From: Planctomycetota bacterium
GTDB taxonomy: Bacteria; Planctomycetota; Planctomycetia; Pirellulales; Pirellulaceae
Length of the DNA stretch: 44,423 bases
Assembly: GCA_014381825.1 (NCBI GenBank)
Contig: JACNKX010000057.1
Location: 1-44,423, forward strand
Direction of reading: 5' to 3'
The translations under genes were made by a program, and so were the position numbers. Every line of letters starts with the position of its first letter. The stretch's first letter is position 1. Positions 1 to 30,424 of the stretch are shown here, piece by piece. The notes beneath the pieces are model-generated. The model was not told the DNA's origin and searched no databases. It saw nothing but the letters and a program-made list of their open reading frames with translations.

Positions 1-183
1 GAACAGTACCTACGTACGCCGTTCTTTGGCTCGCGTCAGATGGCGACCTGGCTGATGGAACTGGGAGACTTCGAAGCTCAAACGCCGGCGCAAGTGCTCA
101 GTAGGCTTCCGGGCGAAGCCGCGTTTGCTGGAAGGACGTGCTGTCGGCGCTCGTCGGATTCAATCCAGACCGCTTCACGCTGA
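1..183 (+). pseudogene. IS3-family transposase remnant, cut by the window edge
   Basis: Frame 1 is open from the window edge to a stop at 181-183. Residues 1-18 include TPFFGSRQMATWL, which resembles the (F/Y)(F/Y)GSR-x-M-x-x-WL stretch of the IS3-family OrfB transposase, between its HTH_21 region and the DDE core. The expected continuation (a VNRKRV-like motif, then the DDE domain) is absent. After about residue 19 the reading turns into unrelated sequence, so only a short scar of the element remains. The assignment rests on one short motif. The rest of the element could lie to the left of the window, but the abrupt loss of similarity suggests decay. Confidence 0.4.
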
Positions 184-26884: not shown

Positions 26885-27173
26885 AAATCCTGGGCACCTT
26901 TTCGCGGGGAATGATTCGCGTAAACCAGCCCTTGTCCTCCGGATGGGCCGCCCGCGCCGCTGCGATGGCGGCTTCGGCAGAATCGGCGACAAATAGCTCT
27001 TCACCGGCAACACAGATTACTTTGCCGCGACACTTGTCAAACAAATCCGGCACGTTGTCACGTAGCCATTCACGATTTCGGTCAAACTCGCGTCGCCGCT
27101 GCTTCGCCTCCCGGATTTCGTCGGGGTCCGTCACTTCAACCAACTCAATTTTCGAGGGAATCGCTCGGATCAT
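26874..27173 (-). CDS. DUF5678-type small protein
   Basis: 99 residues. The C-terminal half matches the DUF5678 pattern as I recall it: LRDNVPDLFDKCRGKVICVAGEE, then LFVADSAEAAIAAARAAHP and a GWFTRIIPRE end. The N-terminal half is highly charged (EIREAKQRRREFDRNREW), probably one helix. The start codon overlaps the cimA stop by 4 nt (ATGA) and its own end overlaps the protease gene by 11 nt, so all three are translationally coupled. The family is often encoded beside retropepsin-like proteins; its function is unknown. Confidence 0.75.
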   Translation of the reverse strand: MIRAIPSKIELVEVTDPDEIREAKQRRREFDRNREWLRDNVPDLFDKCRGKVICVAGEELFVADSAEAAIAAARAAHPEDKGWFTRIIPREKVPRIYAV

Positions 27174-28762
27174 GCTGTATTACCTCCATCGCTAATCGCA
27201 TCCTTGTATAGTTTATACTCAATCGCGTCATTCAACGCGATCCAGCTGGCTTCGATGATGTTCTCGCTGACACCGACAGTGCCCCAAACATCATGTTCAT
27301 CAGCGCTTTCGATGATGACGCGGATGCGAGCGGCCGTGCCAGCTTCGGAGTTTACCACGCGCACCTTGTAATCGACTAGCCGCATCCCTTGAAGGTTCGG
27401 AAAGTTTCCGTTCAGCGCTTTGCGCAGAGCTGCATCCAACGCATTGATCGGACCGTCTCCTTCTCCGACCTCGTGTCGCAACTCGCCGCCGACATTCAAT
27501 TTGACTGTGGCTTCGGTCACAACGCTTTCGTTTTGTGCCGCACCAACTTCGACGTGGTATTTGAGTCGCTCGAAATGAGGCTCGAATGTGCCCGCACACT
27601 TCTTGACCAATAAGTCAAACGAACCTCCTGCGGCTTCGAATTGGTATCCACGATTCTCCATCTCGACAACTTGGTTCAAGATACGGTCCATCAGTTCGCG
27701 GTCTTCCTCGATGTTGTGCTTCGTCGTCAACGCAATGATGTTGGAACGGCCCGAGAGTTCGCTGACCAAGATCCGACGTTCGTTGCCGACCAGCGCCGGG
27801 TTCATATGCTCGTAGCTCTCGGTCGCCCGATTGATCGCGTGGACATGCATCCCGCCTTTGTGAGCGAACGCGCTCTGGCCGACGAATGGTTGGTTGTTGC
27901 GATAGAGCATGTTCGCTTCTTCATAGACGTAGCGAGATAGCTCGGTGAGATGGTCGAGATTCGTTCCACCGAGAACTTCATAGTCGCTCTTTTTGAACGC
28001 GAGATTGGCAACGACAGAGATCAGATCGGCGTTTCCACATCGCTCGCCAAAACCGTTAATGGTTCCTTGCACTTGGACTGCGCCGGCATCTACTGCGGCA
28101 AGTGAGTTTGCTACGGCGAGATCACAGTCGTTGTGGCAGTGAATCCCGACCGATACGCCATGTGGCTGTAACGCGGCTTGAGCTTCCTTCACGAACTTTG
28201 CAATCTCTTCCGGCAGCGAACCACCGTTTGTGTCGCACAGTACAACGAGTTGCGCCCCTGCCTTGGCAGCGGCCTGGATTGTCTTGGCAGCGTACTCGGG
28301 ATTTGCTTTCCACCCGTCAAAGAAATGCTCGGCGTCGTAGATCACCTCGCGACCGGATTCAGCCAGGAACCCAACGCTGTCCGCAATCATGTCGAGGTTT
28401 TCTTCGAGCGAGACTCGCAAGACCTCTGTCGCATGAAAGTCCCACGTTTTGCCGACGACTGTACAGACAGGGGCCTCCGATTCGTAGAGCGCTCGCATCC
28501 CGGGATCATCTTTCGCGGCCATGCCGCGTCGGCGAGTCATGCCAAACGCACAGACTTTGGCATGCTTCAATCCAAGTTCGCGCACGCGCTGAAAGAACTC
28601 AACATCCTTCTCGTTCGAAAGTGGGTACCCACCTTCCACATAATCGACGCCGATTTCGTCGAGCCGCTGTGTGATCTGCAATTTGTCCTGCAGAGACAGG
28701 CTAATGCCTTCGCCTTGAGTACCGTCACGGAGCGTTGTGTCGTAAATCTGGATGGATCGCAT
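27170..28762 (-). CDS. cimA: (R)-citramalate synthase
   Basis: 530 residues of the DRE-TIM/HMGL-like family. It condenses pyruvate and acetyl-CoA into citramalate, which enters isoleucine synthesis through 2-ketobutyrate. The first strand reads YDTTLRDGTQGEG, where the Arg and Asp bind substrate and metal; a metal-binding HCHNDCDLAVANS lies near residue 210 and GTINGFGERCGNADL near 236. The C-terminal LeuA-type regulatory domain (about 390-520) is where end-product inhibition usually acts. The length and the DGTQGEG motif favour the long CimA subgroup over 2-isopropylmalate synthase. No Shine-Dalgarno is visible: the 14 nt before ATG are mostly pyrimidines. Upstream lie five tandem heptamers and a complete attenuator. 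Confidence 0.88.
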   Translation of the reverse strand: MRSIQIYDTTLRDGTQGEGISLSLQDKLQITQRLDEIGVDYVEGGYPLSNEKDVEFFQRVRELGLKHAKVCAFGMTRRRGMAAKDDPGMRALYESEAPVCTVVGKTWDFHATEVLRVSLEENLDMIADSVGFLAESGREVIYDAEHFFDGWKANPEYAAKTIQAAAKAGAQLVVLCDTNGGSLPEEIAKFVKEAQAALQPHGVSVGIHCHNDCDLAVANSLAAVDAGAVQVQGTINGFGERCGNADLISVVANLAFKKSDYEVLGGTNLDHLTELSRYVYEEANMLYRNNQPFVGQSAFAHKGGMHVHAINRATESYEHMNPALVGNERRILVSELSGRSNIIALTTKHNIEEDRELMDRILNQVVEMENRGYQFEAAGGSFDLLVKKCAGTFEPHFERLKYHVEVGAAQNESVVTEATVKLNVGGELRHEVGEGDGPINALDAALRKALNGNFPNLQGMRLVDYKVRVVNSEAGTAARIRVIIESADEHDVWGTVGVSENIIEASWIALNDAIEYKLYKDAISDGGNTA

Positions 28763-28783: not shown

Positions 28784-28818
28784 TATTCGATGTTCGATGT
28801 TCGACGTTCGATGTTCGA
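28784..28818 (-). repeat. Five tandem heptamers upstream of cimA
   Basis: On the minus strand the unit TCGAACA occurs five times in a row with three single-base variants (one ends in G, one reads TCGAATA). It lies between the attenuator terminator and the cimA start, inside the 5' untranslated region. I recall similar TCGAACA strings elsewhere in planctomycete genomes. The role is unknown; expansion or contraction would change the leader length. Confidence 0.8.
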
Positions 28819-28829
28819 CTCACCTTCAA

Positions 28830-28865
28830 TAAAAAAGCCCCGAAACCCGCTTGGGCTTCAGGGCT
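28830..28865 (-). terminator. Attenuator terminator before cimA
   Basis: On the minus strand the arms AGCCCTGAAGCCC (28865-28853) and GGGTTTCGGGGCT (28848-28836) pair over all 13 positions, with two G-T wobbles, around a 4-nt loop AAGC, and run straight into six T. This is a textbook intrinsic terminator, but it lies before cimA rather than after a gene. The 5' arm can instead pair with GGGCTTAGGGC at 28901-28891, which overlaps the leader ORF stop codon. Confidence 0.9.
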
Positions 28866-28890
28866 GTAAAGTTCGTTTCCGACACTCAGT

Positions 28891-28960
28891 GCCCTAAGCC
28901 CGTTCCTCCGTAATGCTAATAATCGCGACGCCGACGATTACGTCGCGGTTGGAACTGGCT
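28891..28960 (-). promoter_or_regulatory. Alternative pairing segments of the cimA attenuator
   Basis: Segment 1 is AGCCAGTTCC (28960-28951, leader codons 5-8) and segment 2 is GGAACGGGCT (28906-28897); they pair at 9 of 10 positions. A segment overlapping segment 2, GGGCTTAGGGC (28901-28891), pairs with the terminator's 5' arm through GGGCT/AGCCC and GGGC/GCCC. Pairing 1:2 would leave the terminator free to form; antiterminator pairing would block it. Segment 1 lies upstream of the Val/Ile codons rather than within them, so the exact stalling geometry is uncertain. Confidence 0.6.
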
Positions 28961-28974
28961 GGCTGGGACATCAT
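28894..28974 (-). CDS. Val/Ile-rich leader peptide of the cimA operon
   Basis: A 26-codon ORF with two consecutive ATG codons at its start, preceded by AGGAAA about nine bases upstream. Residues 12-21 read VIVGVAIISI, seven of ten being Val or Ile (three Val, four Ile), with no Leu. The ORF ends at TAG inside the segment able to form an antiterminator, and a strong terminator follows before cimA. This is the organisation of ilv-type leader peptides: starvation for charged Ile or Val tRNA stalls the ribosome and permits read-through. The downstream gene makes an isoleucine precursor, which fits. The element was found by reading the intergenic sequence; the regulation itself is inferred. Confidence 0.8.
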   Translation of the reverse strand: MMSQPASSNRDVIVGVAIISITEERA

Positions 28975-29005
28975 CTTAAAGTTTCCTAAAGGCAGTTAAG
29001 CCTCA

Positions 29006-29034
29006 ACGATAAGCAGAGTCGCGGTCTGTGTCAA
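29006..29034 (-). promoter_or_regulatory. Sigma-70 promoter for the cimA leader transcript
   Basis: On the minus strand TTGACA (29034-29029, perfect -35) is followed by a 17-bp spacer and TATCGT (29011-29006, 4 of 6 match to -10). It starts 7 bp beyond the asnS stop codon and would begin transcription about 25 nt before the leader ORF. Confidence 0.65.
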
Positions 29035-29041
29035 TTGGAAG

Positions 29042-30424
29042 TCAGAACTCCGCGTTTCCGGGAGTTCGCGGGAAGGGGATGACATCGCGGATGTTGGTCA
29101 TCCCGGTGATGAATTGGACTGCGCGTTCCAGCCCAAGTCCAAAGCCGGCATGCGGCACGGTCCCGAACCGCCGTAGATCGCGATACCACCAGTATTCGTC
29201 CAGATTTAGATCCTGTTCTTGCATGCGATGTTCGAGGACATCGAGTCGCTCTTCGCGTTGGCTGCCGCCGATGATCTCGCCAACTCCCGGCATCAGCACG
29301 TCCATCGCACGAACCGTCTTATCGTCGGCGTTCACTCGCATGTAGAACGGCTTGATCGAACGTGGATAATCGTACAGGATCACTGGGCAATTGAACTTCG
29401 TCTCGGTCAGATAGCGTTCGTGTTCGGACTGCAGATCCGTACCCCAAGTGACTGGATACTCAAACTTCTCGCCACAGGTTTCGAGAATCGTAATCGCTTC
29501 TGTATACGGTATCCGGATGAACTCGCTGTCTACAATCTTCTCGAGTCGCGTGACGGCTTCCTTCTCGATCCGCTGAGCAAAGAAGTCCATGTCTTCAGCA
29601 CAGTGTTCCAACGCGTCGCGGAACAATCGCTTCAGAAATCGTTCGGCAAGATCCATGTTGTCCGTTAGCTCGAAGAAAGCCATCTCCGGCTCGACCATCC
29701 AAAACTCAGCGAGATGTCGCGACGTGTTCGAGTTCTCGGCGCGGAAGGTTGGTCCGAACGTGTAGACTTTGCCTAATGCAGTGGCATAGATTTCGGCTTC
29801 GAGTTGGCCACTCACTGTGAGGTAGGACGGGCGGTCAAAGAAGTCAAAAGAATAGTCAACCTTCTGGTCCTGCGCGGCGAGCTTATCCAGGTCGAGCGTC
29901 GTCACGCGAAACATTTCGCCTGCACCTTCGCAGTCGCTAGCCGTGATGATCGGTGTGTGAGTGTAGAGGAATCCGTCTTCTTGGAAGAAGTTATGAATCG
30001 AGGCGCACGCCTGGTTCCGCACGCGGGCGACCGCTCCAAACGCGTTGGTCCGCGGTCGAAGATGAGCCCATTCGCGAAGCTTCTCGAACGAGTGGCGTTT
30101 CTTTTGCAGCGGAAACTCGTCTGCCCAACCGTGAACAACAACGCTCGAGGCAAGTAGCTCCGTCGCTTGTTGGCCGCCCGATTCTTTGATCTCTCCTTCG
30201 ATCGAAACACTACACCCCGTAGTAATTCGCTTGATATCAGTCTCGTAGTTCGGCAACTCGGCATCAGCAATGACTTGCAAATTACCTAACGAACTGCCGT
30301 CATTCACTTCGAGAAAGCTGAAACCGCCTTTCGAATCGCGGCGAGTCCGAATCCAGCCCTGCACACAAACTTGCTGTCCAATAACGTTCGCAAGTCGGGC
30401 TTTTACAACCGAGAGTTTCTCCAT
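29042..30424 (-). CDS. asnS: Asparaginyl-tRNA synthetase
   Basis: 460 residues, a class IIb synthetase charging tRNA-Asn. The N-terminal OB-fold anticodon-binding domain reads [25 protein letters not shown]. Motif 2 is [21 protein letters not shown] near residue 225, and motif 3 is [13 protein letters not shown] near the C-terminus. The choice of AsnRS over AspRS follows from the overall length (AspRS has a large GAD insert and is about 590 residues) and the [10 protein letters not shown] wording of motif 2. The ATG start lies 3 nt after the stop of the Nramp-like gene, suggesting co-transcription with it. The cimA promoter begins just past its stop. Confidence 0.92.

Follow-up and report, generated by a model that had tools for sequence, protein, structure and literature searches.

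Ribosome-mediated attenuation is well known in Proteobacteria, and its enterobacterial ilv/leu representatives include the leaders of ilvGMEDA, ilvBN and leuABCD. In Actinobacteria, leader peptides with terminators have been predicted for ilvB, trp and leuS (Seliverstov et al., 2005, PMC1262725). Passages of the same paper report that codon mutations in the ilvB and leuA leaders of Streptomyces coelicolor did not act as classical attenuation predicts, so that the anatomy of an attenuator alone can mislead. A further study counts leader genes close to structural genes, Planctomycetes included, and cites the leader survey of Lopatovskaya et al. (2010); it mentions neither cimA nor citramalate (PMC4833913). 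The initial annotation of the DNA analyzed here knew of no described cimA attenuator in planctomycetes, and our full-text literature search likewise retrieved no description for planctomycetes or for cimA, with most subscription papers outside its scope and an earlier prediction therefore possible.

The window, that is, the whole stretch of 44,423 nucleotides that was analyzed, comes from a planctomycete of the family Pirellulaceae (contig JACNKX010000057.1). The initial annotation had proposed a promoter, the motif AGGAAA, a 26-codon ORF with the residues VIVGVAIISI, a segment holding the stop codon and a 13-bp hairpin in the gap between asnS and cimA, and each of these was recovered in its place on the minus strand:

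29034–29006, minus strand: promoter-like site TTGACA-17-TATCGT, with 10 of 12 matches
28987–28982, minus strand: AGGAAA, candidate ribosome-binding site for the leader ORF, from the sequence
28974–28894, minus strand: leader ORF of 26 codons, MMSQPASSNRDVIVGVAIISITEERA followed by a stop, from the ORF listing and related ORFs at other loci
28912–28941, minus strand: control codons 12–21, Val Ile Val Gly Val Ala Ile Ile Ser Ile (VIVGVAIISI)
28902–28891, minus strand: segment 2, CGGGCTTAGGGC, which contains the leader stop codon and is the 5' strand of the antiterminator
28865–28853, minus strand: segment 3, AGCCCTGAAGCCC, which serves the antiterminator as its 3' strand and the terminator as its 5' arm
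28848–28836, minus strand: segment 4, GGGTTTCGGGGCT, 3' arm of the terminator
28836–28831, minus strand: run of six T, the first of which doubles as the last base of the stem
27170–28762, minus strand: cimA, citramalate synthase, the gene under control (TIGR00977, 669.7 bits against a cut-off of 450)
29042–30424: asnS, the gene on the other side of the element

The ORF, whose C-terminal part reads VIVGVAIISITEERA before the stop in the minus-strand translation, lies behind its own promoter and ahead of the structural gene, and its translation is predicted. It carries clustered codons for the product of the pathway and is followed by an intrinsic terminator and by an antiterminator that shares a strand with it. 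The terminator hairpin (28865–28836) consists of 13 pairs, eight of them G-C, around a loop of four and runs into the T run. About 70 nt separate it from cimA, and it falls within the 131 nt between leader stop and cimA start. Overlapping 7-base repeats, CGAACAT/CGAACGT, were also seen between the terminator and the cimA start, at 28786–28817. The pairing between the stop segment and the 5' arm of the terminator turned out to be stronger than first claimed: GGGCTTAGGGC forms 11 bp with that arm around one bulge, GGGCUUAGGGC pairing with GCCCU(G)AAGCCC around a bulged G, and the sister species has 12 pairs. When the leader from 28990 to 28760 was folded, the predicted energy was −74.9 kcal/mol compared with a shuffle mean of −61.0 kcal/mol (z −3.0), more stable than all 200 dinucleotide shuffles.

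The initial annotation had tied its reading to a leader ORF and compensatory stem changes that are conserved in close relatives, and both are found. A search of 199 Pirellulaceae genomes gave cimA-like matches in 196; upstream DNA was taken from 90 of these genomes, 89 of which could be oriented. Loci were scored for an ORF with at least four (or, more strictly, at least five) Ile/Val codons within eight codons, ending before a terminator. The resulting count covers 155 planctomycete loci; it omits one locus with <300 nt of upstream DNA (L005) and three with an unrecognised gene start (L062, L239 and L376), and excludes the 30 best-scoring loci (L091–L120, mostly from other families of the phylum) and 80 loci from named records. 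A terminator was present upstream of cimA at 118 of the 155 loci, against 30 of 775 shuffles and six of 155 reverse complements. An ORF with at least four Ile/Val codons preceded it at 94 loci, against one shuffle and no reverse complement, and the stricter threshold was passed by 73 loci and by none of the 775 shuffles or 155 reverse complements. Of 44 Pirellulaceae leaders, 40 have a promoter-like pattern, TTGAC-15..19-T(A/C)nnnT, located 100–200 nt ahead of their stop codon, compared with 1.2% of base shuffles. Loci from the same genus (L002) and from other genera (L003, L004 and L007) have a similar promoter, stop region and terminator around a peptide that differs but ends in a like manner: AIVGVVIISILEERA, NVGIVIISEEKRA, AIGVVVSMIIISEARA and GAVVVSIITEVRA, respectively, each followed by a stop. 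Relative to the sister species, the leader peptide shows eight nonsynonymous and three synonymous codon changes, a drift that lies outside the control codons; such drift would be expected of a leader peptide, short of being proof of translation. The element does occupy the asnS–cimA gap in the window. Among 30 loci with up to 1500 nt of flank (less in some), however, asnS lies upstream only in L001 and L002, so the element goes with cimA rather than with asnS.

Broken down by family, a leader with at least four Ile/Val codons was found at 53 of 88 loci in the Pirellulaceae (f1), 2/2 in f2, 14/14 in f3, 13/18 in f94, 1/3 in f97, 1/2 each in f95 and f87, 2/3 in f89, 1/1 each in f90 and f92, 0/1 in f91, 3/3 in f58, 1/2 in f65, 1/1 in f49, 0/1 each in f12 and f53, and 0/12 in f93. 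The 61 of 155 loci that failed the test include 35 of the 88 Pirellulaceae loci, 21 of which, L019 and L021 among them, still have a terminator and 14 of which lack one, and all 12 of f93 (L244, L245, L252, L253, L255, L258, L259, L261 and L389–L392). Among the 30 best-scoring loci set apart above, 29 were readable and held no leader of this layout, four having a weak hairpin; a mechanical pass at L103 was discounted, its Ile/Val signal being the end of a 190-codon ORF. Other Pirellulaceae loci show a second layout, with a motif like II.RV.G and a stop 73–95 nt before the terminator (L065, L068, L074, L079, L080, L083, L084, L085, L088 and L324).

We also scanned named genomes with a slightly laxer leader test, keeping 80 loci. 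An ORF with at least four Ile/Val codons preceded a hairpin in 22 of 33 records with planctomycete titles and in three of the 47 others. Several MAG titles are doubtful: some records titled Kuenenia or Singulisphaera carry a CimA that groups with other planctomycetes. In two of the three other passes, L339 and L358, the ORF looks like the tail of an upstream gene. In the third, the deltaproteobacterial MAG L370, cimA is preceded by an ORF ending MEIIVVIVGIIISLLPAGGLVMA and a stop, then by a hairpin and T run; this may be an independent instance of a cimA leader. By name, the leader is present before cimA in Stieleria sedimenti (L324, of the second layout); under the laxer test, no cimA leader was found in Bythopirellula polymerisocia (L309), Singulisphaera sp. 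GP187 (L306) or an Isosphaeraceae MAG (L312). The results for L306 and L312 suggest that f93, the family whose loci all fail, is probably the Isosphaeraceae. The CimA of Gemmata sp. IIL30 (L293) is 95% identical to that of genome G461, which identifies f94 as the Gemmata family. Gemmata-like cimA leaders (L235, L240, L246, L250, L251, L256, L297 and L298) have in common a peptide motif similar to I(A/T)I(I/T)AAQGVR, which could be a nascent-chain or RNA element.

The codons that the leaders favour were compared over 74 upstream regions with a clear terminator, taking the densest eight-codon stretch of any ORF ending shortly before it. Ile and Val together averaged 4.45 against 1.71 in dinucleotide shuffles (z 20.8), the highest value among 20 single residues and 15 pairs; taken singly, Ile reached z 19.9 and Val z 9.7. 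Pairs containing either residue scored 6.0–10.0, Gly and Ala about 4 and Phe −3.6, with D, K, N, Q and H near zero. At least five Ile/Val codons in eight were found at 43 of the 74 loci, against 0.3 expected. Runs of Ile (III, IIII) are common in the leaders of relatives. The product of CimA feeds isoleucine, so such runs suit CimA; Ile is probably the main signal of the cimA leader.

The match between control codons and product, which the initial annotation had pointed out for cimA, recurs at leuA and at DAHP synthase, in the window's own genome too. Upstream of its leuA (L215, on G000:C58) lie a leader rich in Leu codons, MRSKNLALLLLLSLGCHRP followed by a stop, and a terminator. ORFs with at least four Leu codons preceded a terminator at 23 of 34 leuA loci (13 + 21), compared with two of 340 shuffles, and the two signals hardly cross: at least four Ile/Val codons were found at two of the 34 leuA loci, and at least four Leu codons in eight of the 155 cimA leaders. 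We then searched nine genomes with a model built from cimA leaders, R1, in which eight of the nine are represented, scoring 150 candidates per genome. The best match was the cimA leader in all nine, by construction for eight of them, and among the candidates scored were at least six leuA leaders and at least eight DAHP synthase leaders. In the window's genome the latter reads MANLHFYFFWFLFSPTVRRAGGGL and a stop, with a terminator, before a DAHP synthase gene (NF006421, TIGR01361; L439, around 1464–1600 of G000:C107). Leaders with Phe/Tyr/Trp codons and a terminator preceded DAHP synthase in eight of the nine genomes, the others being at L438, L440, L441, L442, L444, L446 and L452, and G016 showed none among the candidates listed. 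The gene downstream of L444 and L452 was recognised as DAHP synthase by tblastn with the L439 enzyme (80 and 76% identity). Leaders with Leu codons at leuA, Phe/Tyr/Trp codons at DAHP synthase and Ile/Val codons at cimA indicate that the codons follow the product in three pathways.

Other candidates did not extend this set. Eleven further R1 matches (L443, L445, L447–L451 and L453–L456) contain no ORF with product codons and look like plain terminators. A wider ilv regulon was rejected: in 18 genomes, the regions upstream of ilvB (18 loci), ilvC (17) and ilvD (19) held nine terminators, two ORFs with at least four Ile/Val codons and one with at least five, of 54. No Trp or His leader was found at 15 trpE and 18 hisG loci, with the gene start approximated at base 1500. 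Loss of coupling was considered as a reason for the missing cimA leader in f93 and was discarded, since seven of 13 leuA loci in that family have a terminator and a Leu-rich ORF.

The alternative helices were examined in an alignment (A1) of 31 of the 47 loci in which 25–50 nt separate stop and terminator; it describes the window-like type and leaves out L008, L014, L015, L022, L027, L031, L032, L035, L051, L052, L057, L058, L064, L067, L082 and L087. The predicted antiterminator was paired in 77.8% of cells, with 17 cells changed on both sides compared with 9.0 in shuffles, and its covariation score (0.151 against 0.112) was reached by none of 500 column shuffles. On two of the five measures, double-changed pairs and further pair types, the antiterminator did not rise above shuffles, 149 and 147 of 500 of which were as high. 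Shifted registers were at most 57.5% paired with a score of 0.114, one of them having six double-changed pairs against five. For the terminator, 87.8% of cells were paired, with 16 double-changed cells against 5.5 and six double-changed pairs against 2.9, neither equalled in 500 shuffles; further pair types were not above shuffles (204 of 500). Double-sided changes in both helices thus exceed those of all 500 column shuffles, and by eye GGCTT/AAGCC is replaced by GGCGT/ACGCC in L030, L038, L041 and L044 and by GGGCGT/ATGCCC in L011. In an alignment-free comparison of 74 loci, native duplexes between segments 2 and 3 averaged −18.2 kcal/mol against −16.2 kcal/mol with swapped partners, a difference reached by none of 5000 permutations, and the native duplex outperformed the mean foreign partner in 53 of the 74. 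Covariation counts may be inflated by relatedness and the tests were weighed jointly; taken together, they indicate that the predicted antiterminator and terminator covary across leaders. The initial annotation had also paired AGCCAGTTCC, inside the ORF, with the stop segment. Such a 1:2 stem does appear in the predicted fold of the window, but comparison lends no support to it as a pause stem: in 30 of the 31 A1 leaders (L037 omitted), native pairing (−21.0 kcal/mol) was close to swapped pairing (−20.5 kcal/mol), and 835 of 5000 permutations were as good.

A ribosome covers 12 nt beyond the first base of the A-site. When the Ile21 codon occupies the A-site, the transcript is therefore free from 28901 onwards, a position that is the first G of GGGCUUAGGGC, and the antiterminator is predicted to fold in the nascent RNA (−26.0 kcal/mol); once the leader stop is in the A-site, the antiterminator is lost (−3.2 kcal/mol) and the terminator is predicted to form. 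Taking this footprint, a ribosome at the control codons leaves segment 2 free and one at the stop hides it. Over 73 leaders, the distance to segment 2 from the first base of the final Ile/Val codon in the cluster has a median of 14 nt (quartiles 11–16); by construction it cannot fall below 3, and it was measured in native leaders only. In 69 of them the start of segment 2 comes at most 14 nt downstream of the stop's first base, and segment 2 reaches that base or extends past it. With all segments present, folding gave the terminator for each ribosome position tried, which means that the switch must be kinetic, set by the order of synthesis, as is assumed for known attenuators.

From these results the element is very probably a ribosome-mediated transcription attenuator of cimA, in which translation of the leader, stalling and read-through on starvation are predicted from sequence. 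Transcription would start at the promoter at 29034–29006 and yield a leader RNA with the 26-codon ORF. When charged Ile-tRNA (or Val-tRNA) is scarce, the ribosome would stall on the Val/Ile codons 12–21 and leave segment 2 exposed, able to pair with segment 3 once the latter has been transcribed; formation of this 2:3 helix would block the 3:4 terminator, and cimA would be transcribed. When Ile and Val are plentiful, the ribosome would reach the stop and cover segment 2, the 3:4 helix would form and transcription would end near 28831.

Several other explanations were weighed against this one. The hairpin does lie downstream of asnS in the window and might simply terminate that gene, with the Ile/Val-rich ORF arising by chance, 5 kb of this DNA holding 88 ORFs of at least 20 codons. 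The ORF–terminator pair nevertheless precedes cimA in relatives with no asnS upstream, and chance gave it in one of 775 shuffles compared with 94 of 155 loci; unless genes were wrongly assigned, the comparison refutes this explanation, which is extremely improbable. If the ORF encoded a functional small protein, such as a membrane peptide, this would account for its shortness, its hydrophobic product and its plausible start signal, but residues other than Ile/Val are poorly conserved, nonsynonymous changes to the sister species outnumber synonymous ones by eight to three, the length varies and the stop codon sits inside a base-paired strand, so that we give this reading next to no probability.

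Two further explanations accept a translated leader. In one, the peptide itself arrests the ribosome, through a metabolite or its hydrophobic sequence, and charged tRNA is not sensed. The hydrophobic peptides and the motif that recurs in Gemmata-like leaders would accord with this; however, the window's group does not conserve sequence beyond the Ile/Val cluster, and the layout is shared with the Leu leaders of leuA and the Phe/Tyr/Trp leaders of DAHP synthase, which fits sensing of codons better and makes arrest by the peptide very unlikely. In the other, control is exerted in some different way, such as by Rho or by re-initiation at cimA, and the hairpin is a plain terminator. Leader genes near structural genes have been proposed to aid re-initiation, Planctomycetes included, in passages of PMC4833913, and the Streptomyces codon mutations reported in parts of PMC1262725 did not fit attenuation. 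Yet the 131 nt from leader stop to cimA start, with a terminator between, are too far for re-initiation, and the 2:3 helix covaries and is spaced from the control codons as a ribosome would require; the chance that such control explains the element appears exceedingly small.

Attenuation by a translating ribosome also bears on planctomycete cell biology. Ile/Val leaders with terminators precede cimA in Gemmata sp. IIL30 (L293) and at L373, from genome G450, of the same genus as G461. For Gemmata obscuriglobus, a spatial separation of transcription and translation was proposed in 2014 (cited in passages of PMC6212462 and PMC5394234), and nucleus-like compartments in planctomycetes are disputed (PMC6554331). 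Since this kind of attenuation requires that a ribosome be on the RNA while it is being made, the Gemmata leaders bear on this separation: a conserved attenuator argues for coupling, at least at these genes, with the predicted leaders coming from L293 and L373 and the proposal concerning Gemmata obscuriglobus. We consider it reasonably likely, with clearly less assurance than for the cimA element itself, that planctomycetes belonging to the window's taxonomic class regulate entry steps of amino acid pathways through a set of product-matched attenuators (CimA with Ile/Val, LeuA with Leu and DAHP synthase with Phe/Tyr/Trp), accompanied by coupling in Gemmata. If true, coupling at these genes would contradict the spatial separation proposed for Gemmata obscuriglobus, and cimA leaders would offer a genetic handle on a debated aspect of planctomycete cell biology.

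The element is of a known kind, ilv/leu/trp-type attenuation; for its gene and its phylum we found no description of such a system and no Rfam family. Searches of the window, L215, L439, L440, L293, L002, L003 and L324 against Rfam 15, with its T-boxes and leader families, gave no match at the gathering score; a match to NsiR1 (E 0.22) fell below that score and was taken as chance. Like the enterobacterial ilv/leu attenuators, the planctomycete element has runs of product codons, a stop close to segment 2, 2:3 and 3:4 hairpins that exclude each other, a U run and a gene of branched-chain biosynthesis downstream. It differs in its target, cimA of the citramalate route to isoleucine, in its codons, Ile with Val, and in having no Rfam match and no pause stem backed by comparison. 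With the actinobacterial leaders described in passages of PMC1262725 it shares a leader peptide and terminator found comparatively in a phylum with few experiments; those leaders belong to other genes and another phylum and are reported often to lack some components, whereas promoter, ORF, antiterminator and terminator are all present in the window. Further counterparts are the planctomycete leuA and DAHP synthase leaders, which have the layout of the cimA leader and occur in the same genomes but carry Leu and Phe/Tyr/Trp codons in place of Ile/Val. Classical attenuation would thereby extend to the citramalate pathway and to Planctomycetota, with a natural specificity set of three leaders and three codon types in one genome.
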